The notes under the pieces: generated by a model | What the model was told of the DNA's origin: nothing | The model's input: only the letters and a program-made list of their open reading frames with translations | Databases searched by the model: none | Source of the DNA: a virus | Strand: one strand, 5' to 3' | Virus record (IMG/VR): IMGVR_UViG_3300008110_001532 | Coordinates: 1-23,671 of that record | Length of the DNA: 23,671 bases | Position numbers and translations under genes: made by a program | Part shown: in pieces, positions 4,266-23,458 of the stretch | Numbering within the stretch: position 1 is the first letter of the stretch | Layout of the letters: each line of letters starts with the position of its first letter

Positions 4266-5443
4266 ATGACTAATTTAAATAAAGCCTTTTGGCACTCTGA
4301 GGAAAACAGCATCAAGTTATCGATGCCGATTGCCAAGGTAGACAAAGAAAAGCGTATGGTTTCAGGGTTCGCTACCCTTGATAATATTGACAAGCAATCA
4401 GACATTGTTCCAACAGATGTTAGCGTAAAAGCATTCGAAAGATTCCGTGGAAACCTTCGTGAAATGCACATGCCAATTGCGGTGGGTAGAGTGGTATCAT
4501 TTAAATCAGATAAGTTTTATAATAAAGAAGAAGATAGATTCTATAATGGAGTTTTTGTAAATGCATATATTTCTAAAGGTGCTCAAGATACTTGGGAAAA
4601 AGTTCTTGATGGTACTCTTTCTGGTTTTTCTATTGGCGGCAGTATCAAAGATTCTGACCAAGTCTACGATGCCGAGATGGATAAATCAATTCGCGTTATT
4701 AAAGACTATGACCTACACGAACTCTCATTAGTAGACAATCCAGCAAATCAATTTGCAAATATTGTGTCTATTGAAAAAATGGCAGACGGTCAAAACAAAA
4801 TTGATGGTATTATTAGTAAAGTAGATCTTGAAAATGTTTATTGGTGTGAATCAGACTCACTAATTAGACTTTCTCAAGAAGAAGATTCTTCATGCCCATC
4901 ATGCGATAAATTGCAGCAGAAGCACCAGCAGCAGAAGAAGTTGCTACAGATGAAAACATTGAAAAATCAGCAGATGCAGAAGAAGTTGCACCAGCAGAAG
5001 CAGCACCAGCCGAAGATGCACCAGTTGCACCAGAAGCACCAGCAGCAGATGCACCAGCAACAGAAGATGCACCAGCAGAAGATGCCGTCACTCCTGCTAA
5101 AGAAAGCGATAACGCTGAATTAGCAAAGGCTGTAGATACAGTACAAGAATCAGTAGATGAGGTTCAAAATACAGTTGCTTCAGCACTTGGAGACTTGGTG
5201 ACAACAGTAAAATCACTAAACGACAAAATGGCAGAACTGCAAAAGAGCATTGCTTCCGCACAAGAGGAAATTAAAGGCATTAAAGGCAATGTAGATAATT
5301 TTGGAAAGCGTGTTGACTCACTAGAAGACGACACCGCTATCCGTAAGTCTGGCGATCTCGGCGGGATCGTTCAGGAAACACAAATAACAAAAAAATCGAT
5401 GTGGGGCGGGCGTTTCCTCAATTCCGCTGACCTATATCGCTAA
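4266..5443 (+). CDS. Prohead protease fused to scaffold domain, reading frame interrupted near 4909
   Basis: Residues 1 to about 170 form an XkdF/HK97-type capsid maturation protease. Probable catalytic residues are His68 (REMHMP), Ser122 (LSGFSIGG; Ser119 is the alternative) and Glu152 (LHELSLVDNPAN). Residues 190-215 hold YWC (Cys194) and SCPSC (Cys210, Cys213), a likely small metal-binding knuckle. After codon AAA at 4908 the frame runs into an implausible Gln/Lys/His-rich tail. In the -1 frame, opening at 4910 just after a TAA, the same DNA reads as an Ala/Pro/Glu linker, then a coiled coil (about 5195-5330), ending in SMWGGRFLNSADLYR, a typical scaffold C-terminus directly before the capsid gene. 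Joined, it would be about 392 residues. No X-XXY-YYZ slippery site is present, so an indel or deletion is more likely than programmed frameshifting. Confidence 0.82.
4913..5095 (+). repeat. Low-complexity GCA/CCA/GAA/GAT codon tract
   Basis: About 180 bp of imperfect repetition of Ala, Pro, Glu and Asp codons (GCA, CCA, GAA, GAT) encode the flexible acidic linker between protease and scaffold coiled coil. The tract makes all three forward frames and the reverse strand look open, producing spurious ORFs. Such tracts can change length by slippage and are hard to assemble. Confidence 0.8.
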
Positions 5444-5455
5444 ACAACATTCACT

Positions 5456-5463
5456 GGGAGGTG
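5456..5463 (+). promoter_or_regulatory. Strong ribosome binding site of the major capsid gene
   Basis: GGGAGGTG lies 7 nt before the ATG at 5471 and is one of the best Shine-Dalgarno matches in the window, as expected for the most abundant virion protein. No -10 element was seen between 5443 and 5471, so the gene is probably transcribed from upstream. Confidence 0.8.
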
Positions 5464-5470
5464 AAATATT

Positions 5471-6258
5471 ATGGCAGATGAAATTTTAGAAAAGGCTGCA
5501 AGTACAGGATCAATCGTTTCTGGTGGAATTGGCGGAGTCGCTAATCCAACCGCTGGAGACCTTGGTGTATATGGTGCTACTACAAATGATGGTGGTATCT
5601 TATCTCCTGAACAATCACGCCAATTTATCGAATATATTTTCGAACAACAAGTACTAGCACGTGACGGACGCAGAGTAACAATGCGTATCACTTAGTTCGC
5701 GTAATGACTCGTGCATTCGCAAACGATCTTGAAGATCTTGCAATCAATGGTACAGGAACTGGTTCAAACACATTCCTAAACATCCTTGAAGGCTTCACAA
5801 CAAAAGAAAATAATGGTGCAAGTGCAACATACGGCACAACTGTCGAATCCTTACAAGCATTGGTATTAGCAATGCCACGTAAGTATCGTGCAGCACGTGC
5901 TAACATGAAGTTCTACGCAGATACAGAAACAGTATCTGACATCATTAATGGTCTTGGATCTAACGGTAACTTAAACAGCGAAAGAATCGTTGAAAGAGTT
6001 ATTGGTGGAGCAGAACCACAACTTGTTGGTGCACCTATCGCTTACCGCGTTCTAGGTCTTCCTTTATTGGAAGTTCCTTTGATGCCTGCAAACCGTGTCG
6101 TTTTGACATTCCCTGAAAACCGTATTTGGGGTTTCCAAAGAGACATTACAGTTCATCGTGAGTTCCAACCAAAGAAAGATACTGTAGAATACACAGTATT
6201 CCTACGCTTTGGTGTACAAATCGAAGAAACATCAGCAGTAGCAAGAATGCAAGGATAA
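5471..6258 (+). CDS. Major capsid protein (HK97 fold), interrupted with an internal segment missing near 5688
   Basis: The 5' part encodes 74 residues with an N-arm including DGGILSPEQSRQFIEYIF and VLARDGRRVTMR, then TAG at 5693-5695. In the -1 frame the DNA continues from about 5689 as HLVRVMTRAFANDLEDLAI through to the TAA at 6256-6258, with SERIVERVIGGAEPQLVG, a P-domain/A-domain pattern and a C-terminus typical of this capsid family. In homologues I remember, about 65 residues lie between the VTMR and HLVR motifs (the E-loop strands with TTKK and LDWE, then the start of the spine helix). None are present here in any frame. The gene is therefore frame-shifted and seems to lack about 190-200 nt. 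As written it could not give a working capsid subunit. Identity as the capsid protein is firm; the size of the loss is from memory. Confidence 0.88.
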
Positions 6259-6274
6259 TATCCTTACAACAATT

Positions 6275-6310
6275 AGAGAGGGGCATTTATTTGTCCCTCT
6301 CTTTTCTTTT
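6275..6310 (+). terminator. Rho-independent terminator after the capsid gene
   Basis: An 11-bp stem pairs 6275-6285 (AGAGAGGGGCA) with 6292-6302 (TGTCCCTCTCT), with one G-U pair and a 6-nt loop, followed by the T-rich run TTTTCTTTT to 6310. It lies 17 nt after the capsid stop codon and would end or weaken the capsid transcript. Confidence 0.88.
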
Positions 6311-6314
6311 ATAG

Positions 6315-6320
6315 TATAAT
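6315..6320 (+). promoter_or_regulatory. -10 element TATAAT before the connector gene
   Basis: TATAAT lies directly after the capsid terminator and 17 nt before the ATG at 6338. The predicted start near 6327 would give a leader of about 11 nt holding GAGGTG just before the start codon. A weak -35-like TTGTCC at 6291-6296 lies inside the terminator stem, 18 nt upstream. Confidence 0.5.
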
Positions 6321-6337
6321 TAAATAGAGGTGCACAC

Positions 6338-7222
6338 ATGGAAATTTTAAATTATAACAGTGGTTCACTAAGTGCATCTGTTTCAGGTTTAACTGCAAGC
6401 ACAAACTATCTAATAGAATTAAATGATTTAATTACAGGAAATGAATACTCAGCATCAGCAACATCTAATGGATCTGGAACTGTAGTATTTACAATGCCTT
6501 CAAACTTTAAAGAATATACAGCAAAACTTGCTGCATCAGTTAAAAAGATATCAAATGATGAATTAGTTAAAATATTTAATATAGATATCGTAAGACCGTA
6601 CACTAATATATCCTCAATTGTAACAGCACTTAAAATTACAAACACTCAGGCTACAGAATACGAAAGACTTGCAAGATATATCATAGATTCACATACTGGT
6701 GGTTTTGATTACATGCGTAAGAAGAAAGAATTTATTGGGGACAACTCAGATCAACTTTTAATAGATGAACCAATTACTGGTAAAATTTATAACATTTTAG
6801 AAAATAACGAGGTAATGTTTGAAAGAGATGAAGACTTATCAAATAATGATCAAGAATTTGTATATAAGAAACAATTAAGTGCAATAGTTCAAAATCTACC
6901 AAATGGAAATAACAGAGTAAACTATTCAAAGGTATGGAGAGATAGATATTTAGATGTAGAGTTTTATGATGGATATGAATACTTAGTAGATGCAGACTTT
7001 GGATGGAAGGTTATTCCACAAGATATTCAAGATGCAGCAGATATGCTTATTCAAGATATTGCATCAGATAGTTTAAAGTATGTTAACAGATATATTGAAT
7101 CGTTTGATAATGATGACTTTAAGATTAAATTCTCTAAGAATTGGACAGCAAGTACAGGTAATCGTGTAGTAGATAGAATCCTGGAGAAATATCAGAAACC
7201 CATTCGTGTCGGGGTGTTCTAA
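6338..7222 (+). CDS. Head-tail connector (adaptor) protein with N-terminal beta domain
   Basis: The product is 294 residues. The first 65 or so are Ser/Thr/Asn-rich and beta-patterned (SVSGLTASTNYLIELNDL), suggesting a small Ig-like decoration domain. From about residue 85 the sequence (DIVRPYTNISSIVTALKI and TQATEYERLARYIIDSHTGG) matches head-tail adaptors that sit under the portal in actinobacteriophages. The C-terminal half, with VWRDRYLDVEFYDGYEYLVD and a helical end, fits a gp6/gp15-like connector fold. The ATG at 6338 follows GAGGTG at good spacing. Its TAA abuts the next ATG. The connector role is inferred from position and family resemblance. Confidence 0.7.
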   Translation: MEILNYNSGSLSASVSGLTASTNYLIELNDLITGNEYSASATSNGSGTVVFTMPSNFKEYTAKLAASVKKISNDELVKIFNIDIVRPYTNISSIVTALKITNTQATEYERLARYIIDSHTGGFDYMRKKKEFIGDNSDQLLIDEPITGKIYNILENNEVMFERDEDLSNNDQEFVYKKQLSAIVQNLPNGNNRVNYSKVWRDRYLDVEFYDGYEYLVDADFGWKVIPQDIQDAADMLIQDIASDSLKYVNRYIESFDNDDFKIKFSKNWTASTGNRVVDRILEKYQKPIRVGVF

Positions 7223-7584
7223 ATGTTTAGTGCATCTGGATTAACAGATATTTATTATCCAATGTCTGCTGAATTATATTATGCCGAAAGCAAGCAGGAT
7301 GAACTAGGTGTTATACAAAAAACGTGGGTACTGGATAGGGTAATAAGATGTTCTATTATATCTTCTATGTCAGACAAGACTCTTACTGGAGAATTAAAGA
7401 ATAGTGGACCTATGTTTCAATATAACTCAGATGTTCTTTTAAGAACTAATGAAGATATTCAAAAGAAGAAGAATGGTAGCATATTTTCAATAACTGAGTT
7501 CCATCCTACAACGGATTTCATGAAGTAGAGTTTTATCGTGGATACCTTGCAAGATCAACTAGACAAAATGAGGTATTATACTAA
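7223..7584 (+). CDS. Probable head closure/stopper protein, frame broken near 7500
   Basis: The annotated frame gives 101 residues (YYPMSAELYYAESKQDELG, VLDRVIRCSII, VLLRTNEDIQ) and ends at TAG 7526-7528. The C-terminus of that frame looks wrong. In the -1 frame, opening at 7498 after a TGA, the DNA reads PSYNGFHEVEFYRGYLARST and ends at TAA 7582-7584, which overlaps the next gene's ATG as TAATG, the normal junction in this operon. Homologues end in a similar -VEYYKVxxxRSxxQ- motif. So the true gene extends to 7584 and carries a -1 type indel or a short deletion between about 7490 and 7502. The start codon ATG 7223 directly follows the upstream TAA, with GGGGTG 6 nt before it. Stopper function is inferred from order: adaptor, stopper, neck, tail completion. 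Confidence 0.65.
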
Positions 7585-8285
7585 TGAGTGCTATAGCGGT
7601 AAAATTTGATACAGTTAAACTAAATAGAACAATAACTAATATTGTAAAATACTCAGATGGATTTTTAAGTGAAACAAGGCAAAGTAAAAATAAGATAGCA
7701 CTAAAAATGGCCAATACAAGTGTTAATGCTTTTTATCAATATCTTGATGGTGTAGCCAGAATGCATCCAGAAATGCTTCATCATATATATGAATGGGGAC
7801 AAGTTGGAAACCCATTTGCAAGACTTGTAGAACTTAATATAAAAACAGGTCAAGGTGGAGTTGTAGTTGGTGCAGATTTTAAACAATCGGTTACTAGCCC
7901 TAAGAGTGGGAGTGAACCATTCTATAACAAGGCTGAGGTTATGGAAGATGGAGAAACAATAACTGTTCAAGAAAAAGATGCAGAAGTTTTATTCTTTGAA
8001 ATTGACGGTAAAGAATTTTTTAGAAAAGGTCCTATAGTTATTGAGAATCCTGGTGGAGAAGCAGTTAGAGGATCATTTGTAAGAACATTTAATGAGTTTT
8101 ATGCTTCATACTTTTCTCAAGTATACTTAAGATCTATAAAGTTTTATGAGCATTTTCAAAGTCCTAAATCATATGCCAAAAACTTTAGATCAGCAGTTAA
8201 AAGTAGTAATGCAAAAAATGCTGGTAAGGCTGCTGCTATGCAGTGGATAAACAGTATTCCAGGAGATGATCAGATTGGCTTATAG
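7584..8285 (+). CDS. Neck / HK97 gp10-like minor head-tail joining protein
   Basis: The product is 233 residues, with an N-terminal helix rich in Lys and Asn, and FYQYLDGVARMHPEMLHHIYEWGQVGNP read in succession, a pattern of tail-joining proteins that come between stopper and tail terminator. The middle is beta-rich (VQEKDAEVLFFEIDGKEFF, GPIVIENPGG) and the C-terminus is helical with Lys and Ser. GAGGT at 7570-7574 is 9 nt before the ATG. The gene ends inside the start region of the next one. Assignment rests on order and general pattern; no catalytic residues are expected or seen. Confidence 0.6.
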   Translation: MSAIAVKFDTVKLNRTITNIVKYSDGFLSETRQSKNKIALKMANTSVNAFYQYLDGVARMHPEMLHHIYEWGQVGNPFARLVELNIKTGQGGVVVGADFKQSVTSPKSGSEPFYNKAEVMEDGETITVQEKDAEVLFFEIDGKEFFRKGPIVIENPGGEAVRGSFVRTFNEFYASYFSQVYLRSIKFYEHFQSPKSYAKNFRSAVKSSNAKNAGKAAAMQWINSIPGDDQIGL

Positions 8286-8841
8286 TGCAGCAAGTGTAAT
8301 GTTATTTACACCAACAGCAAATATATTAAAGTACGCATTTGATGAAATTATTCAATTGCCAGAGTTTGACTACTTAAATAAGATAATTGATCAAGAAGGA
8401 AATAAACTTAGTCCTATTGTTCCACTAACAATTATTAACTCTGGTGCTGATGCCTTGCCATTTAATACACTAACCAATCCACAACAAGTATCTATTGTTC
8501 ATGATGAATTTATTAAACAAAGAAGTGGACAGTATAAATATTTTTACCCAATTAAAGGAGTTCAGTCCAGGGTAAAATTAAGTCACGGAAACCTTGCAGA
8601 CCTTATGGCTTTAAAATGGAAATTTTTAGAAATTATAGATAGGGACGATGCAGCAGCAGAAGATATTAATGCTTGGATGCAAGATACTTATGGCGGGGAT
8701 CAAAAAATCTACTTTCATTGTGTAAATGCCTATGAAACTACATATATGGCAGATGCTACAAACTTAGATGACCAAAGAAACGTATTTTCTGGGGATATTA
8801 TAATTAAGGCTGATTATCATACAGTATCAGACTACCGATAA
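8275..8841 (+). CDS. Probable tail completion/terminator protein
   Basis: I chose the TTG at 8275 (188 aa, starting AYSAASVMLFTPTANIL) because AGGAGAT at 8261-8267 then sits at good spacing; an ATG at 8266 in the same frame would touch the AGGAG directly. The product has a helical N-terminus (ILKYAFDEIIQLPEFDYLNK), a beta core with IVPLTII and a segment IIDRDDAAAEDINAWMQDT that resembles the -RyDxSAxDIN- region of actinophage tail terminator proteins. Position directly before the tail tube supports that role: capping the tail and joining it to the neck. The first bases overlap the end of the neck gene. Confidence 0.6.
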   Translation: MAYSAASVMLFTPTANILKYAFDEIIQLPEFDYLNKIIDQEGNKLSPIVPLTIINSGADALPFNTLTNPQQVSIVHDEFIKQRSGQYKYFYPIKGVQSRVKLSHGNLADLMALKWKFLEIIDRDDAAAEDINAWMQDTYGGDQKIYFHCVNAYETTYMADATNLDDQRNVFSGDIIIKADYHTVSDYR

Positions 8842-8849
8842 ACAAGACT

Positions 8850-8855
8850 TATAAT
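8850..8855 (+). promoter_or_regulatory. -10 element TATAAT before the tail tube gene
   Basis: TATAAT lies 9 nt after the preceding stop. The predicted start near 8862 gives a leader of about 46 nt that contains a C-rich stretch (GCCCCCAC) and a strong Shine-Dalgarno AGAGGAGG at 8891-8898, 9 nt before the ATG at 8908. No convincing -35 was seen. Confidence 0.45.
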
Positions 8856-8907
8856 TGTATTGAGGAACGCCCCCACTATCAACAAATTATAGAGGAGGGA
8901 AATAAAT

Positions 8908-9375
8908 ATGGCATATACTCGTGGTAATTCTAAGCAAAATGGTCTGGAATTACAATTCCAACCAGACTTTGGTGAAGTTCAAGTAGACCAATTGCTAGAC
9001 GTTGCACGTCTGTACAAACAAGGTATGTCCGTAAGTTTAGTTACAGCATTTGCTGAAGCAACTTTGGACAACTTGATTACAGCAATTGCAGCGAAAGAAG
9101 CAGATAAAACAACATCAGGATCAACCGAAACACTAGAACTAAAATCTGGTGACATTGGTGACGTTCCAGTTGAACGTGCTCTTGTTGCAGTAGGTCCAGG
9201 AACAGGTGACCCAAACGTTACTAAGGAACGCGTCTATGTTGCAAACCGTGCACTTTCAATCGAAAGTGTAACAGTTTCAGCAAAACGTGACACACCTTCA
9301 ATGTTTGAAGTAACTTTCCGCTTGCTTTCAGCATCTAACGGATCTTACGGAAAAATTGTTGACCGCACAGTCTAA
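8908..9375 (+). CDS. Major tail tube protein, possibly shortened at the N-terminus
   Basis: The product is 155 residues with NGLELQFQPDFGEVQVDQLL, VARLYKQGMSV, FAEATLDNLITAI, PVERALVAVGPGTG and an ending YGKIVDRTV. This is the pattern of major tail proteins of actinobacteriophages, which polymerise into the tail tube around the tape measure. Position before the chaperones and a strong Shine-Dalgarno site support this. Homologues I remember have roughly 30-45 more residues before the -GLEL- strand; here MAYTRGN runs directly into SKQNGLEL. An in-frame loss near 8929 is possible but cannot be proved from the sequence. A terminator follows immediately. Confidence 0.8.
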   Translation: MAYTRGNSKQNGLELQFQPDFGEVQVDQLLDVARLYKQGMSVSLVTAFAEATLDNLITAIAAKEADKTTSGSTETLELKSGDIGDVPVERALVAVGPGTGDPNVTKERVYVANRALSIESVTVSAKRDTPSMFEVTFRLLSASNGSYGKIVDRTV

Positions 9376-13100: not shown

Positions 13101-16100
13101 GTGGATCTGGATATCAAACAATGCCACAGTATGAGGGATATAACAAAGGTCACATATTACCTTTTGCCAAAGGTGGATCAGTACCATCATTATTAACTCC
13201 TGGAGAATTTGTAGTTAATAGAGATGCGGCAGCAAAAAATAAACCATTCTTAGAAGCACTAAATGCTGGACAAGTAAGAAACTATGCAACTGCTGGCGAT
13301 GTTACATATGGTCCACAAACAAAACGTCAAGCAGCAATAACATCATTTAAGGGTGGACTTGGAACTGCAGGAACAGTTGCAGCAGGTGCATCAATACCAT
13401 TAATGTTTGCTGGACAAATGATGGCACAAAGTTCAAATCAATTTGCTGCATCCATAGGAAATTTTGTAAACTCAATGACCCCAGCATTATTTGGACTGCA
13501 AGTGCTTGGACCACTTCTTCCTAAGTTAGCAAATCCAATCGGTCTTGCAATTGGTGCTACTGCAGCACTTGCTTACGGAACATATAAAGTAGTAGCACAA
13601 ATTAAGAAGTTAGAAGACTCTGGTGCTGCATTAACTAGAGCCATGTATGGTTCATCAAAAACAGTTGATCAGATGGCTGCAGCATTTGGAAGACAAACAG
13701 CAACTCAACAAGTTACATCCACATTAGCACAAAGAGTGGGCGGTGCAGTCGGTCAACCAGCAGCAGAGGCTGCTAATCAATTTGTTGGAACAGATGCAGG
13801 AAAACAATTGATTGCTGATATTGAATTGGTTAAAAAGGCTGGTGGAGATACTATTGCCGCCCTAAAGAATCAACTAGCAAGAAGCGTTGTATCTGGTGCT
13901 ATTACAGCAGAAGAAGCCAGGGGTGTAGCAATTGAAATTGGAAAAACTCTTAATGATCAACAATTAGCAGTAAATGTATCTGCTCAATTAACACAATTAC
14001 TAGGAACTAATGGTGAATTAATTAAAGGCAATGAAATAGATATTATTGGAAAAATAACTCCTACTATAGATATGTCACAAGTAAATGCAGTTACTGAACA
14101 AATGTTTGCTCAAAATACTGCTGGATTCTGGGGTGGCCTTGCAAAAATATTTACTGATGACGATGTAGAAAAAAATAAGATTGCAGTTAATTTAATTGCA
14201 GAAAATACAGTTCAAGCATTTAAAACATCAGAAGAATCTGTTTCTAACTTTAAACTTGCAGTTTTAGATGGATCTATGAGTTTAGATGAATATAATAGAA
14301 AAACAAATGAATTAGGAAGAACAAGTCAACAAACAGCACAAGGTGGTCTTGATGCAATTGCAACTAAACTTAAAGTTACAAAAGGTGAATTAAATAATCT
14401 TGCAAATCAAAAAGCATTTGCTGGAGGTGGAAAGGGTGGAGCAGTGCTTGTTCCAACAGGAACTGCTAAATTATTAGAAACAGAATTAAAGAAAACAAAA
14501 ACAGCAGCACAATCAGCATTAAAGAATATGGGTCTTACAGATACTATGGTTGAACAAATTAGTAAAGGTCTTTCTGCTGAAAACTTTACAACACAGATGG
14601 AACAGTTTGGAATACTTGCTGGCGGAGCATTGACTGATGAAATGGAAATAAAGTTAGCAGCAATGCTTGGAAAAGGAAAATATTATTTTGATAACTTACT
14701 AAACCCAGGAGGAAAGGGTGGTATTCCAGGAGCAGATACTGGAGGAGGATTTGGTGGAGATGGTACAGAAGGAGAAAAATCTGCACTTCAACTATTGTTA
14801 GAGCGTATTACATTAACAAAACAACAAACTGCTGCAATATCTGGATTAGTTCAAAATGGATTAAACCCAGAAGCAGCCGCTACCTTAACCGCTGAAGAGG
14901 CAACACAACTTTATAATAAAGCCAAAGAGGATCAAAAAGGTATTATTAAAAAAATTAATGATGATTCAACCAGACAAAGAGTATTGGCAGCAGCAGGATT
15001 AACTCAAGATCAAAAATCAATTAATTTAAATAATCTTAAAATTCAAGGTATGAATTTAGAAATTGCACAAAATCAAAAACAAATTGATCAAGTAACTAGG
15101 TTAAATGAATTAGATACTAGACAAGTCTCTATTAGACAACATGCATTAGAGGTATTAGGAAAGAAAGAAAAATCAGTAAATGATTTATATTCTAATAGAA
15201 CAAAGGCTCTAGATGCAGTTGCTCAAGCAAATGAAAGAGCAAATCAACAACAAAGAAATTCTATTGCACTTGCTAATGCTTTAACTAGTGGAGACTTTGG
15301 TGCTGCTGCTTCAGCCGCTGCACAGATGACATCTGACTCAGCATCAAATCAAATCCAAGATGCAAAGACAGCATTAGAAGCACAACGTCAAGCAGAACTT
15401 AATGCACTTACTACAGAAGTTAATGGTAAATTATTAACAAGGGCAGAAATAGAAGCACAGATAGATACTTATAATGAAAATATTTATCAAAGAACACAAG
15501 GCACACTTCAATATGAAGATAATATATATACTATAAAATCTAAAATGGCAGAACTTGAAAGAGAAAATGATTTAATTCAGCAAAGAGTTGCAATTGCACA
15601 GGTACAAGCGGAAGCATCTATGGCTAATCAAGAAAAATATTCTAAGAGTATTAGAGACTATTACCAACAGGTACTAGATATTATGGGAAAGTTTCCTAAA
15701 GGATCTCCAATACCAGGCCGCAAATATGGTGGATCAATTCAAAAACTTATGTACGGAGGACTACCTAAAGGATCTACAGAAAGCCCTCCTTCTCTTAGGT
15801 TTGCTAATGGAAATATAGTTCCAGGAACTGGCATGACAGATAAAGTGCCAGCATTGTTAACACCTGGAGAATTTGTTGTTAGAAAATCTGTAGCAGAAGC
15901 AAACATGCCATTATTAAAGTCATTGAATAGTAACGTGTTTGGTGCAGGAATGAATATTGGATCTCCAAACATATCTCCAATTGAAGCCACAACATCTGTT
16001 TCAAATGTGTCGGCACCAGTGTATAATTATAATGTAAACGTTAATGTTGCAGATACAAATGCATCTCCAAATGAAATTGCAGATGTAGTAATGAATAGAA

Positions 16101-16144: not shown

Positions 16145-16734
16145 TGGCTACAAGTACTTATATTCAAAATAGATGGGCTTATACTAGACCACAGGCTATT
16201 GCATGGTCTAATAATAGTGGTAGCGTTAACGGAGGACTGCTTGTTCCTGGGGGTACCGAATTAGAAGATTTTATTATATTATCAGATCATAATCGTGGAG
16301 AAATATCAATAGGTCAAAATAGAATTGAAAATAGAAAAAGAATGATTAATGGAACAATGCGTTCATACCATATTGCAGATAAATTAAATATATCTCTAGA
16401 TTGGGAAATGCTTCCATCAAGATCCCATAGTGGAGACCCAGCATATAACGCATATGGCAATGCAGCGTCTGGATTAACTGAATATACTGCTGACGGTGGT
16501 GCAGGAGGTGCAGACATAGTATCTTGGTACGAATCAAACCCTGGATCATTTTATATGTTTATGTCTTATGATAGACACGATAAGTTTAGTGGACAGGTTG
16601 ATAGATTTGACCATTTGCATCAATACAATGATGTAATAGAAGTTTATTTTTCTTCATTTTCTTTTAACGTAGTAAAACGCGGCGGCTCTAATCACGACTT
16701 TTGGAATATTTCATTATCTCTTGAGGAAGTATAA
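16144..16734 (+). CDS. Minor tail protein, likely distal tail (Dit-like)
   Basis: The 196-residue product starts at ATG 16144 overlapping the tape measure TAA, with AGAGGA 11 nt upstream. It contains WAYTRPQAIAW, NRIENRKRMINGTMRSYHIA, ISLDWEMLPSR, a Gly-rich TADGGAGGADIVSWYE segment and DFWNISLSLEEV at the end. This combination occurs in the gene directly after the tape measure in actinophages of this type. A role at the tail tip, where Dit sits, is inferred from position. The protein appears complete, with no catalytic motif. Confidence 0.62.
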   Translation: MATSTYIQNRWAYTRPQAIAWSNNSGSVNGGLLVPGGTELEDFIILSDHNRGEISIGQNRIENRKRMINGTMRSYHIADKLNISLDWEMLPSRSHSGDPAYNAYGNAASGLTEYTADGGAGGADIVSWYESNPGSFYMFMSYDRHDKFSGQVDRFDHLHQYNDVIEVYFSSFSFNVVKRGGSNHDFWNISLSLEEV

Positions 16735-18326
16735 TGTTTATAGATTCCGACTTAAATACACATCTTAAAACTAACAATACACTAAAATCAGAATCATTAG
16801 TAATTGCAGAATGGAATCTTAATGATTTTGAAAATATATTAAACTTTGGTAACTACCGATATAGGGCTAATGATGCAGCATCTTCTATATATGCTAATTT
16901 ACCTAATTCATACGACCCCGATGATTTAGGAGATTATTATACAGACGCACTTGTTTCAAGCATAGAGTCAGAAACACTTGTTGATGAAAATGATGCATCA
17001 TTAATTTTTACTACACCAGAAGTAGATAGACAACTTTATTATGACTTAAAACAATGCTTTAATTCTTTTAGACCTAGATCTGGAATTAACAAGCCATTAT
17101 TCTTTGAAACAGGGAAGTATGTAGATAACATTAAGTCTGCAAGAAGACCTAGGTATTATATGGCATCTAGAAATGACTACTTTAAATATTGGAACTCATT
17201 TAGAATTGAAAATAGTATTGAAAGAGGAAGATCTGAAAGAGTAGACTCAACTGCAATTGGATATAGCATTACAGATGCATGTCCATTTGTTGTATATAAA
17301 GAGCAGGTTGCCTCTAACAGAATTGTTGTTAAACTACAAACAAATCTTGCAGAAAGTGCAGGGGTAACAATAAAAGATGTAAATAACAATGTAATTATAG
17401 ATCCACTTACAGATATAACAAAGTCTAGTATTCCAAAAAGATGGTCCATTCAATATCTAGATAATAATAATAACTGGACAACTGCAATTAACTTTAATGA
17501 AGATTCTTTAAGAAGAGATGGATCGAACATTGTTAAATGGGATGGCTATGTAGAACTATTTTATGGTTTAAACATACCAGATAAATATAAAGGATCATTT
17601 TACTATGTTGATAAACTAAATAGCGTAGGTGATCTTCCATCAGCACAAGCAATAAATGGTGAGGCATACTTAGTAGGGTCATCAACAACATCTGCTGGAA
17701 CAGTGCATGTTTGGAACTCTTCAACTATTGCTTGGGAATCATTTCCAGCAGAATATAAATTTCAATTATTAGAAGATGATGATACAAAAAGAATCGGCGT
17801 TGTATCTTCACTAACTGATCCAGATTATTTTATAGATGGTGGCAGAACAGTATTTAGAGAAATAGTATTATTAAAAGGCTTAAGAGTAAAAGTAGAAACA
17901 CTTTATGGTCCAGACAATACTTTTGATTTGATTGAACTAAGCCCAAGACTTACAGCAAATATATCAGATTATGTTTTAGGTTTCGATGTAACAAAATCAA
18001 TACCAAACGATACCTCTGGAATACCAGTAGGTAGTTTAGTAGCCTCAAATGGAACAATGACTTTAATGAATCATGACTTTGCATTTAGTGAGCAAAATAT
18101 ATTTGAAAATAATCAGGGTAGTATTATATCCAATATATTAAATCCCAATACAAGAGTAGACTTTTATGATGTTATAAAGAATGTTAATGAGTATGATAAG
18201 TTTATACCAGTTAAAAGTATGTATATTGAAGACTTTCCAAAAGGTGGAAGTGCCTTGGTTGATATATCGGTAAATACTTTTACAAAATGTTTCATTGACA
18301 TATGCAGTAGCAGTATTATTAGATAA
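16734..18326 (+). CDS. Tail tip/baseplate protein, N-terminal part of a frame-broken gene
   Basis: The 530-residue frame begins at ATG 16734 overlapping the upstream TAA, with GAGGAAG just before. It contains beta-rich tail hub sequence: LIFTTPEVDRQLYYDLKQCF, RRPRYYMASRNDYFKYWNSF, a WDGYVELFYG strand and DYVLGFDVTKSIP followed by PVGSLVASNGTMTLMNHDFA. The last residues after DISV (near 18270) look unnatural and end at TAA 18324-18326. The DNA from 18274 continues in the +1 frame as the next entry, which has no ribosome site. In homologues I remember, the two parts are one protein, with a short conserved segment (LRDFYF-like) between DISV and LLQNVSLTYA. The two parts are therefore read here as one gene of about 1430 residues that is broken. 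Confidence 0.65.
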   Translation: MFIDSDLNTHLKTNNTLKSESLVIAEWNLNDFENILNFGNYRYRANDAASSIYANLPNSYDPDDLGDYYTDALVSSIESETLVDENDASLIFTTPEVDRQLYYDLKQCFNSFRPRSGINKPLFFETGKYVDNIKSARRPRYYMASRNDYFKYWNSFRIENSIERGRSERVDSTAIGYSITDACPFVVYKEQVASNRIVVKLQTNLAESAGVTIKDVNNNVIIDPLTDITKSSIPKRWSIQYLDNNNNWTTAINFNEDSLRRDGSNIVKWDGYVELFYGLNIPDKYKGSFYYVDKLNSVGDLPSAQAINGEAYLVGSSTTSAGTVHVWNSSTIAWESFPAEYKFQLLEDDDTKRIGVVSSLTDPDYFIDGGRTVFREIVLLKGLRVKVETLYGPDNTFDLIELSPRLTANISDYVLGFDVTKSIPNDTSGIPVGSLVASNGTMTLMNHDFAFSEQNIFENNQGSIISNILNPNTRVDFYDVIKNVNEYDKFIPVKSMYIEDFPKGGSALVDISVNTFTKCFIDICSSSIIR

Positions 18327-21006
18327 TATAGGATTTAGCAACTACGTATTTAAAAATATAACAGATAAAAATGATCCAGTTATTCCATACTTTTTTGTTG
18401 AACCAGATGCAAACGTTGCTGAGGTATTACAAAGACTAGCAGTAGCAACACAGTCTGCAATGTTCTTTGATGAATATAATAACTTTGTTGTGATGTCAAA
18501 AGAATATATGCTGCCTGCTACTGGTGAAAGATCAACAGACGTTACGTTATATGGTCAAAAAACAGATAACAATCTTCCTAATATTATTGAAATTAAAAGT
18601 GGAGAAACAAAGGTTATAAATGATGGAAAGATAAATTACATTGCTAGATATATTCAAAGAGCACCTGCTTCATTAAAACAGGCTACATATCTAGACGAAG
18701 ACAGAACCTACGGATATCAACCAGTGGTATTATGGGAAGTTCCAAGTCAAGCAAATAACAAAACAATAAATGAAAAGTCAAAGACTGGATCATTTACTTT
18801 AGGTGCAGTTGCTTTAAATACAACTCTTAATAACTTAGATCCATATGTAGAAAATAATACACTAGTCAACAACATTATAGACATAGGTGAAAATGTATAC
18901 TGGCTTCCAAGAATGCAGGGGTATCTATATGCAAATGGTGAAATAATTAAATATGATGCTGTTCAATATACCGTTCCGTCAATAGGAAATGCTTGGGTAT
19001 CTGATGAAATAGAATATCAAAAGTACTTTAGTCAACTACCATTTAATGGAAAAATGTATCCTACAGGACTAATAAGAATTTATTCAGAACCATATTACGA
19101 AGATAATATAAATAATTTAGGAACATATACTACTTTGTATAAGAATGGACCTGTAAAGAAAAGTGGAAGAGCACAATTTGGAACTAACATAACTGAACAC
19201 TCTGCAGGTTTAAATGATTTTTGGTCCAATAATAATAATGTTGATGGATATAAAATGGACTCTAGTTATTTATTTACAACAACGCCAACAGGATCTATTG
19301 TTAGACCAGCCCTTGGAAACGCTTCAGAAAAACTTTGGCAAGCAGGTAAGGCAAGTGCAACTCAATCAAGTCGTAATGGAATCATATCAAACTTTTTAAG
19401 AGAAACAATTCCATCAGATGATATTGTTAAAACACAAAAAACAACATCTAAAGGAACTGTTCAATCATCTGCATTAGTATTTACAGGACCATCTACAGCA
19501 GTAGATAAAAATCAAATAACACATGTTAAAAAAACATTAGATTCAGACTACAAGCATTTTGGAACTAGGATGAGAATTATAGGTAAGAAAGAAGCAAGTG
19601 CTAGAATTCAAACACCTACAAATGCAACAGAATATTATGTAGTTTCATCACAAACTGGAGATCAAACAACAACCCTTACTGGTGGGTCTGGTGGAATATC
19701 AATTATGTTAGATTCAGATGGAGTAACTGGATATTATTTTGAAATATGCTCATTAAGTTCTGATAATCTAGAAAACTATAATACTGTAGATTCTAATACA
19801 GGTGTGGAAAGTTCTGTACTACATAACGTATTATTTTATAAAGTAGTTAATGCAGTTAAAGATGGAAAGGAAATTGCACTCCCATATAAACTTTGGGGTG
19901 GGCTATCAAAGATATTAGTAGACGAAGGAAGATTTGTTGGACAAGATAGACTTTCAAATGAAGCAAATCCAACTGTATATGACATATCTATTGAATATAA
20001 AGAAATAGGATCTATAAGAAGATTCTACTTATACATCAATGGAACACAGATTGCAACAGTAGATGATACAAGTCCTCTATCCCAAAAATATAATAATATG
20101 GCAGTTTTTGTCAGGGGTGGGTCAAAGTGTATGTTTGAAAATATATATGCTTTAAAAAATCAGTATTCTCAAGAAACAAAAAGTACCGTTATAGAGAGTG
20201 TATCAAATGCTTTTGGAAAGAAAGAAATAAACTCTTCAGATGCTTTAAGAAAATATGCAGTGTCTGGATTTGTTCAAGCAACATATCTATCTGGAATAGG
20301 TGCACAAAATGCACCAAAGTATGCAATGTACTACGAGGAATTTGGAACTATTTTTAGAGAGTGTGTATACTTTAACGTTAAATACGATAAAGCGTACCCA
20401 GCATTTAGAGCAATGTTAAAGCCTACCTTTAATAATGAAAAGACCTACACTTCATCAGGTTTTTACGCTGATGCATATGGTGCAGAATTTTTAGTATTTA
20501 ATGCAACAGACAAACTTATCACACTTGATGAAACATCTGGAAACTATTTACAAATTATAGGAATAACCTTTACTCAAAATACATCAAATACTTTAACAGC
20601 AGATAAGTTTTATCAAGATAGATCAAACTTTGCAGATCCAATAATTGTTAATAATGCAATATTGTCACCTTCTAAACAAGATAAAATATATCAAGATGTA
20701 AAGATTAGTAGATCAAAGTATGGAAGAAGAGACTTTACGTTGGACTCAATTTATATACAAAGTGAAGATCAGGCTAATGGATTGATGGATTGGATACTTT
20801 CTAAAACAATAAAACCTAGAAAGATTATACTCTTAGAGGTATTTGGAGTTCCACACATCCAACTTGGAGATATTGTTAATATAGACTACACAATGCCAAG
20901 TGATGATAAATTTGTTGAAATAGACAAGCAGTTTGTTGTTAGTGAAATTCAATACGGAAGATCTGAGCAGGGTCCATCTAGTATAATTAAGGTGGTTGAA
21001 GTATAG
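18274..21006 (+). CDS. Tail tip/baseplate protein, C-terminal part of the frame-broken gene, with lectin-like domain
   Basis: This frame opens at 18274 after a TAA. A TTG at 18295 is the only near start and lacks a Shine-Dalgarno, so I read this as the continuation of the preceding gene. The first residues (VSLTYAVAVLLDNIGFSNYV, PYFFVEPDANVAEVLQRLA, AMFFDEYNNFVVMSKEYM) form a tail-hub-like domain. A central jelly-roll region (about bases 19600-20160, with GYYFEICSLSS, YDISIEYKEIG and FYLYINGTQIATVDD) resembles concanavalin/LamG-type carbohydrate-binding domains. The C-terminus (RKIILLEVFGVPHIQLGDIV, FVVSEIQYGRSEQGPSSIIK) is conserved in such proteins. It likely forms the tail tip and may contact host glycans; the latter is inference. 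Confidence 0.68.
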   Translation: MLLQNVSLTYAVAVLLDNIGFSNYVFKNITDKNDPVIPYFFVEPDANVAEVLQRLAVATQSAMFFDEYNNFVVMSKEYMLPATGERSTDVTLYGQKTDNNLPNIIEIKSGETKVINDGKINYIARYIQRAPASLKQATYLDEDRTYGYQPVVLWEVPSQANNKTINEKSKTGSFTLGAVALNTTLNNLDPYVENNTLVNNIIDIGENVYWLPRMQGYLYANGEIIKYDAVQYTVPSIGNAWVSDEIEYQKYFSQLPFNGKMYPTGLIRIYSEPYYEDNINNLGTYTTLYKNGPVKKSGRAQFGTNITEHSAGLNDFWSNNNNVDGYKMDSSYLFTTTPTGSIVRPALGNASEKLWQAGKASATQSSRNGIISNFLRETIPSDDIVKTQKTTSKGTVQSSALVFTGPSTAVDKNQITHVKKTLDSDYKHFGTRMRIIGKKEASARIQTPTNATEYYVVSSQTGDQTTTLTGGSGGISIMLDSDGVTGYYFEICSLSSDNLENYNTVDSNTGVESSVLHNVLFYKVVNAVKDGKEIALPYKLWGGLSKILVDEGRFVGQDRLSNEANPTVYDISIEYKEIGSIRRFYLYINGTQIATVDDTSPLSQKYNNMAVFVRGGSKCMFENIYALKNQYSQETKSTVIESVSNAFGKKEINSSDALRKYAVSGFVQATYLSGIGAQNAPKYAMYYEEFGTIFRECVYFNVKYDKAYPAFRAMLKPTFNNEKTYTSSGFYADAYGAEFLVFNATDKLITLDETSGNYLQIIGITFTQNTSNTLTADKFYQDRSNFADPIIVNNAILSPSKQDKIYQDVKISRSKYGRRDFTLDSIYIQSEDQANGLMDWILSKTIKPRKIILLEVFGVPHIQLGDIVNIDYTMPSDDKFVEIDKQFVVSEIQYGRSEQGPSSIIKVVEV

Positions 21007-21686: not shown

Positions 21687-22715
21687 TGATAACTAATGAT
21701 GGTAAACAAATCGTAGCAAGCATCTGTGTCACTAACAAAAAAATCACTAGATTTTGAGGTTTTTAGAGTTCCAATTTTATCAAAAGGTTTTATTAAAGAA
21801 GATGGTGTAGAAAAACTAGTTCTTAAAGCAGAAATGCCAAATGATCAAAGATATAAGATATCTGAAGTAGGAGTATATCCTGGTGCAAACAATGCTGTTG
21901 CTGGAAGATATGATAGTAAATTACTTATAACATTTTCAACAGCAGAAGCGTGGACATATTCGGATGGTTCAAGTTCTTCAGCAGTTCCTTATCCAAACAT
22001 TCCAATTGATAATGGAAATACAAGTGCAAGTATAAATGCAAGCACTGAAAAGTTTTTATTTATTAATTCAGACTCTACAATATTTAATGATCAATCAAGA
22101 CAAAATAGACAGGAGCCACCAAGATATTTAAATAGGTCACTATTAGTTTCTGGTAGTTCGTCATATATAGGCTCAGGATATACTATAAATACTGGATCAA
22201 AATATTTAGAAAATTCTGCAATATCTTTTGATTTAAGTCAAAATCTTCCAGACGATGAAGTAAAACTTGCTTTTAGTTTATTAAGTAGACAGGCAGCAAC
22301 CAATACAAATCCAGATAATGTAAAGATTATTTTACAATTTATAAATAACTTATCAGGTATAAATACCGCACCACCTGCAGCAACAGCAAAAATAGATTTA
22401 ACATCGGCTAACATAGGATCAAATAGATATCAGGTTGTAACCAGAACAATATCTCAGTTTGCTGCCGACCAATCATTTTCATGGGCTAATATAAATATGG
22501 TTAGGATTTATGTTTCTACGCTAGTAGGTGGGGTACCATCCAACGACTACTTTGTTTTGCTTGATGGAATGAGAATAGATAACGTTACAGCAATAAATCC
22601 ATTATACTCACTAGTCGGGTATAACATAATTAAAACAGATGATGGACTACCAATTTTAAAGGGTGAAAATACAAATAACTATATTGAATATAGATTTGGC
22701 ATAGGGGTTTCCTAA
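21686..22715 (+). CDS. Minor tail/baseplate protein, frame broken near 21715 with N-terminal segment missing
   Basis: ATG 21686 overlaps the upstream TAA and has GAGGTG 5 nt before it, a good start. It encodes MITNDGKQIVAS, a typical N-terminus of an actinophage tail protein, but then runs to a TGA after 23 codons. The long frame (open from 21717) begins ASVSLTKKSLDFEVFRVPIL and continues for about 330 residues (KLVLKAEMPNDQRYKISEVG, YDSKLLITFS, a beta-rich C-terminal half with LPDDEVKLAFSLLSRQAA, and a C-terminus YRFGIGVS). The GTG at 21726 has no ribosome site. In homologues I remember, about 30 residues lie between MITNDGK-IVAK and the SLDFE motif. A deletion with frame change is the simplest reading. 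The part after 22050 may be a carbohydrate-binding-like beta domain. Confidence 0.65.
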
Positions 22716-23182: not shown

Positions 23183-23458
23183 ATGGCAACGATAATTACA
23201 CCAACAAGAGGTCAACCTATAGATGTTACTCTTATTTCATCTTTAGTAGAAGCAGTAAGTGATCTTCACTTTACAACAACTCCTGTTGCCATAGCAGGGC
23301 TAACAAACACTACAAGCACTGTTTCTGGTGGTAACGCTGCAACTGTAGTATTAACATCAGTAACAAAAGACCGTGTTGATGGAATTATCAAGTTCCCATC
23401 TGGATCAACAGGCTCTGTAACTATGCAGATTAATTTAATAGCACTTGGAATAGCCTAG
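23183..23458 (+). CDS. Small tail fibre/baseplate-associated protein
   Basis: The 91-residue product has an N-terminal TPTRGQPIDVTLISSLVEAV helix and a C-terminal beta part (TVVLTSVTKDRVDGIIKF, MQINLIALGIA). Similar small actinophage proteins after the tail genes share the RGQPLDV start and the VDGIVKF ending but, from memory, are longer with about 50 residues between the halves. Here SDL runs directly into HFTTTPVAIAG near base 23265; an in-frame loss is possible. Function is not established; position suggests a virion surface or fibre role. Confidence 0.6.
   Translation: MATIITPTRGQPIDVTLISSLVEAVSDLHFTTTPVAIAGLTNTTSTVSGGNAATVVLTSVTKDRVDGIIKFPSGSTGSVTMQINLIALGIA

Follow-up and report, generated by a model that had tools for sequence, protein, structure and literature searches.

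A central segment missing from the major capsid gene of a freshwater tailed-phage contig is most likely a data error

The DNA analysed here, which we call the window, is a linear IMG/VR virus record of 23,671 bp that carries the structural-gene segment of a freshwater tailed phage. The portal gene lies at 2619 (PF04860, phrog_12), the protease gene at 4266 and the major capsid gene at 5471, with tail proteins also present, and both the portal gene and the tape-measure ORF of 2,002 residues (PF10145) are intact. It is noted that the tape-measure gene of the window exceeds that of the related 80.7-kb contig G004 by 54 bp (at 15685-15808), which looks like ordinary length variation. The capsid gene is present in two parts, as follows.

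5471..5695, plus strand: major capsid gene, N-terminal fragment (residues 1-72, followed by a false stop), from the ORF and a match to phrog_1623 positions 18-53
5687, no strand: junction J2, where 193 bp encoding capsid residues 73-137 are gone and 1 bp is common to both sides
5689..6258, plus strand: major capsid gene, C-terminal part in the -1 frame, residues 138-326, matching PF05065 and phrog_1623

The ORF that starts at 5471 is closed after ...RVTMRIT by a TAG at 5693-5695, and HLVRVMTR... is read from the CAC at 5689-5691, that is, in the -1 frame relative to that ORF, with the single base shared at the junction being A5687. The ORF caller begins the C-terminal part at 5704, versus the 5689 given here. 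The ORF coordinates thus bear out the first-pass annotation, which had described a capsid gene that stops at 5695 and resumes in the -1 frame at HLVRVMT. That annotation had also held that about 65 residues between VTMR and HLVR, a conserved central segment of the protein, putatively the E-loop and the start of the spine helix, are absent, and the absence was confirmed by comparison with the relatives described below.

By querying IMG/VR with the C-terminal part of the capsid protein we obtained 80 relatives; a search for relatives in prokaryote genomes gave none. The best relative, L002, comes from contig IMGVR_UViG_3300028025_001235, the full length of which is denoted L082. Near J2 it is 99.9-100% identical to the window on both sides and has 193 more bases between them. 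Its capsid protein is intact with 326 residues, the N-terminal fragment of the window being continuous there with the remainder of the protein, and its residues 73-137 (TNAAELEK...EGAGLED) are those missing from the window, where a search for the 193-bp stretch found no match in any other part. The segment is present in L082, G004, G002 and the other aligned relatives, with 76 relatives aligning across the site, and a count by hand from the list shows no variation among 28 relatives at 46 of its 65 residues. The isolated Streptomyces phage Wakanda (Stanwilliamsviridae) retains it too, and when the L002 and Wakanda capsids are compared, few other stretches are as well conserved. Homologues of about 260 residues that lack the segment in frame, which the first-pass annotation had named as what would speak against its reading, were not seen. 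Thus the segment is truly absent from the record, a loss that the protein would not survive, and an intact capsid allele exists in many public relatives.

The profile matches point the same way. The downstream fragment of the window enters PF05065 only at position 102 of 280 and phrog_1623 only at 126 of 305, with the upstream fragment ending at 53 of the latter, so that the capsid appears in two pieces separated by about 70 unmatched profile positions, as would be expected if the loss lies close to where the capsid domain begins. In L002 the protein matches PF05065 with E 4.5e-15 and phrog_1623 with E 1.2e-70 over nearly its whole length. The predicted capsid structure had a mean pLDDT of 32, making the model unusable, and a PDB sequence search with the capsid protein gave no match.

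Three readings of the missing segment itself can be set aside. That the relatives instead carry an intron or an inserted element is rejected, because what the window lacks is conserved coding sequence in them and, for the capsid, because the segment also occurs in an isolated phage. Programmed frameshifting is rejected because the bases themselves are missing and not merely the frame. Repeat collapse or homologous recombination does not explain the losses, because the sides of the junctions have at most one base in common.

The capsid loss is one of seven. Alignment of the whole window with L082, G004 and G002 revealed losses of 226, 193, 91, 180, 47, 83 and 147 bases at 4910, 5687, 7497, 8938, 18278, 21719 and 23268, respectively, with no inversion or foreign insert among them. 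The six besides J2, none of which had been reported in the first-pass annotation, are as follows (no strand applies to any of them).

4908..4911: junction J1, 226 bp lost in the head maturation protease / scaffold gene, now spread over two frames between 4266 and 5443; this loss breaks the frame
7497..7498: junction J3, 91 bp lost; the gene at 7223 is shortened, corresponding to a 150-residue ORF in L002
8938: junction J4, 180 bp (60 residues) lost in frame from the gene at 8908, a protein with an Ig domain (phrog_2175)
18275..18280: junction J5, 47 bp lost; a tail gene of about 1,440 residues is split into 16734-18326 and 18295-21006
21719: junction J6, 83 bp lost in the early part of a gene whose reading now begins at 21726, truncating it
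23268..23270: junction J7, 147 bp (49 residues) lost in frame from the gene at 23183

The protease of L002 is intact, with 467 residues that match phrog_9427 from end to end, and the tail gene of J5 is a single ORF in L092, with the two halves in the window matching consecutive stretches of phrog_10359; J5, J6 and J7 were confirmed against the further relatives L091-L097. At all seven junctions only 0-1 bases are common to the two sides. Five of the seven losses have lengths that are not multiples of three and break the frame, which is close to the two-thirds expected without selection. When 20- or 21-mers across J1, J2, J4 and J6 were searched in IMG/VR, no other record was found to carry them. 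Base composition was considered as a cause and rejected, since the G+C of the lost stretches is mostly like that of the flanks, J6 (0.49 versus 0.32) being the exception. Breakpoints lying at the edges of conserved blocks, which would have been a clue to the assembly graph, were also considered, and no consistent contrast in conservation was seen.

If the window were a real defective phage genome or a provirus in decay, with seven short segments gone, clean deletions of which five break the frame would be as expected, since such a genome is not under selection. The rest of the sequence argues against this. Over the first 8.9 kb the window and L082 differ at 62 positions, of which 54 are synonymous and 6 non-synonymous, giving a pN/pS of 0.03, and there are no nonsense differences in this aligned part. 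Apart from the losses, the first 8.9 kb is thus under strong purifying selection, and because of the low pN/pS and the lack of nonsense changes there is no decay other than the deletions; neither the relaxed selection nor the scattered nonsense and frameshift changes of a decayed provirus were found. If seven segments of essential genes were truly gone from the genome, signs of decay would be expected elsewhere in it, unless every one of the losses is very recent. Also against a defective phage are the intact tape-measure and portal genes, the finding of the tested junctions nowhere else, and the fact, described below, that affected relatives follow the sample number. We consider this reading very improbable.

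It is also noted that the identity to L082 is uneven, with 99.9-100% at 4912-6400 (scaffold and capsid) and differences of about 1-2.6% at 500-1500 and 6500-8900, for which recent recombination or a mixture of strains in the contig are possible explanations.

In order to see how such losses are distributed, private clean deletions of 25-400 bp were called in the relatives. Six contigs among the first 160 loci carry them (at L013:3821, L014:3362, L015:3922 and 4540, L022:699, L068:529 and 1868, and L096:3162), with L015 and L068 having two each. All six contigs come from samples 3300008107/08/10/16/20 and 3300008262, and among the approximately 146 loci of other samples there is no private loss (Fisher p 8e-8). 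Three of the contigs, L013, L014 and L015, are nearly one virus, with 99.8-100% identity where aligned, and the pieces lost differ in each. Because this block of samples was defined after seeing the data, a further set was fetched with a different query. It contained one more affected contig, L228 of sample 3300008261, which lacks 43 and 76 bp at two sites, 1052 and 2857, and no affected contig outside the block, the new block contigs L180 and L240 being clean; taken alone, this held-out set is weak (p 0.04). Overall, 7 of the 16 contigs of samples 3300008107-3300008448 are affected versus 0 of 213 other loci, where block membership was counted by hand from contig names and the 213 are loci rather than independent contigs, some contigs outside the block having been fetched twice. 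The losses are thus private to one record and confined to a batch, as is expected of an assembly artefact. Judging from the shared loss signature, the window would itself belong to the affected block.

Besides the window, only L013 and L015 have losses at the capsid site, and these are private defects of the one sample block. In these three contigs, which represent two lineages, the capsid gene breaks after one and the same base, directly following ATGCGT, with different right ends (window 5683-5687, L013:3821, L015:3922), and from this common left end 193, 31-32 and 132 bp, respectively, are lost. The common left break hints at a sequence-dependent cause and in this respect speaks against the assembly reading. 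One reading of it is that a site-specific nuclease cuts the conserved capsid site and the ends are then joined, giving variable deletions with a fixed left end, to which the three shared breakpoints would correspond. No common site is seen among the other junctions, the aligned relatives of other samples are intact, and the losses track the sample number, all of which argue against such an event, and we regard it as extremely improbable. The idea that the site is cut or skipped in nature, with defective genomes circulating in the lake as the result, is just as hard to credit.

Two ways remain in which the losses could have been made in the data. It was considered whether chimeric molecules arose during library preparation or whole-genome amplification and were then assembled faithfully at low coverage, in which case the artefact would stem from the bench and not from the assembler. 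Such an origin would agree with the near-blunt junctions and with deletions that are short and direct and, moreover, chimeras would likewise be specific to a sample or project. It would then be required that seven such molecules dominate one contig, all in the same direction and of sizes that vary little, without any inversion or insertion of foreign DNA, and one left breakpoint recurring in three contigs would not be expected. We thus take chimeric molecules to be an unlikely source.

By contrast, losses of about 30-230 bp with near-blunt joins that disregard the frame, with no Ns in the contig records examined and with confinement to one sample block, fit scaffolding in which contigs are joined end to end without gaps. 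In this mechanism, the source would be an intact freshwater tailed phage whose short-read contigs were placed in order by read pairs and then fused directly, so that the 47-226 unassembled bases of each gap were dropped instead of written as Ns or filled. We infer that the fault lies in this scaffolding step with its missing Ns rather than in, say, library molecules that were chimeric. The sample numbers in this range presumably belong to a freshwater bloom series. A literature search found no paper that names these sample numbers or ties them to an assembler. A Lake Erie study used IDBA-UD (PMC5647855), to which no link from these samples could be made.

Accordingly, the missing capsid segment is not a biological feature and is most likely a data error. 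That it is a data artefact of some kind, whether of the assembler or of the library, we hold to be very likely, and that it is specifically an assembly artefact tied to the sample block, arising from scaffold gaps joined without Ns, has a good probability. The first-pass annotation had left the choice between an assembly error and a defective genome or variant; the former is strongly favoured by the seven losses in one contig, the lack of decay, the private nature of the tested junctions and the confinement of similar losses to one sample block, while the latter is unlikely.

The capsid gap brings nothing new for phage biology. It does mean that silent losses of about 30-230 bases are frequent in one block of publicly available viral contigs, where they give rise to spurious pseudogenes, split genes and short homologues. 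When IMG/VR is mined for truncated or frameshifted phage genes, these samples need to be checked or filtered.

Finally, we compare the window with known systems. The real capsid protein of this phage is most likely an ordinary HK97-type protein of 326 residues. That of L002 is 38% identical to Wakanda gp23, which is of the HK97 type (PF05065 and phrog_1623 families), and the order portal, protease, capsid in the window and in L002 is as in Wakanda, which adds one small gene between portal and protease. Unlike HK97-type major capsid proteins, the copy in the window has no residues 73-137 and is shifted in frame, which we attribute to assembly. The losses resemble local misassemblies in short-read metagenome contigs in being short, in lying at otherwise correct joins, in ignoring the frame and in belonging to one batch, and they differ from the usual ones in their density, since 23.7 kb hold seven of them, and in the absence of Ns.
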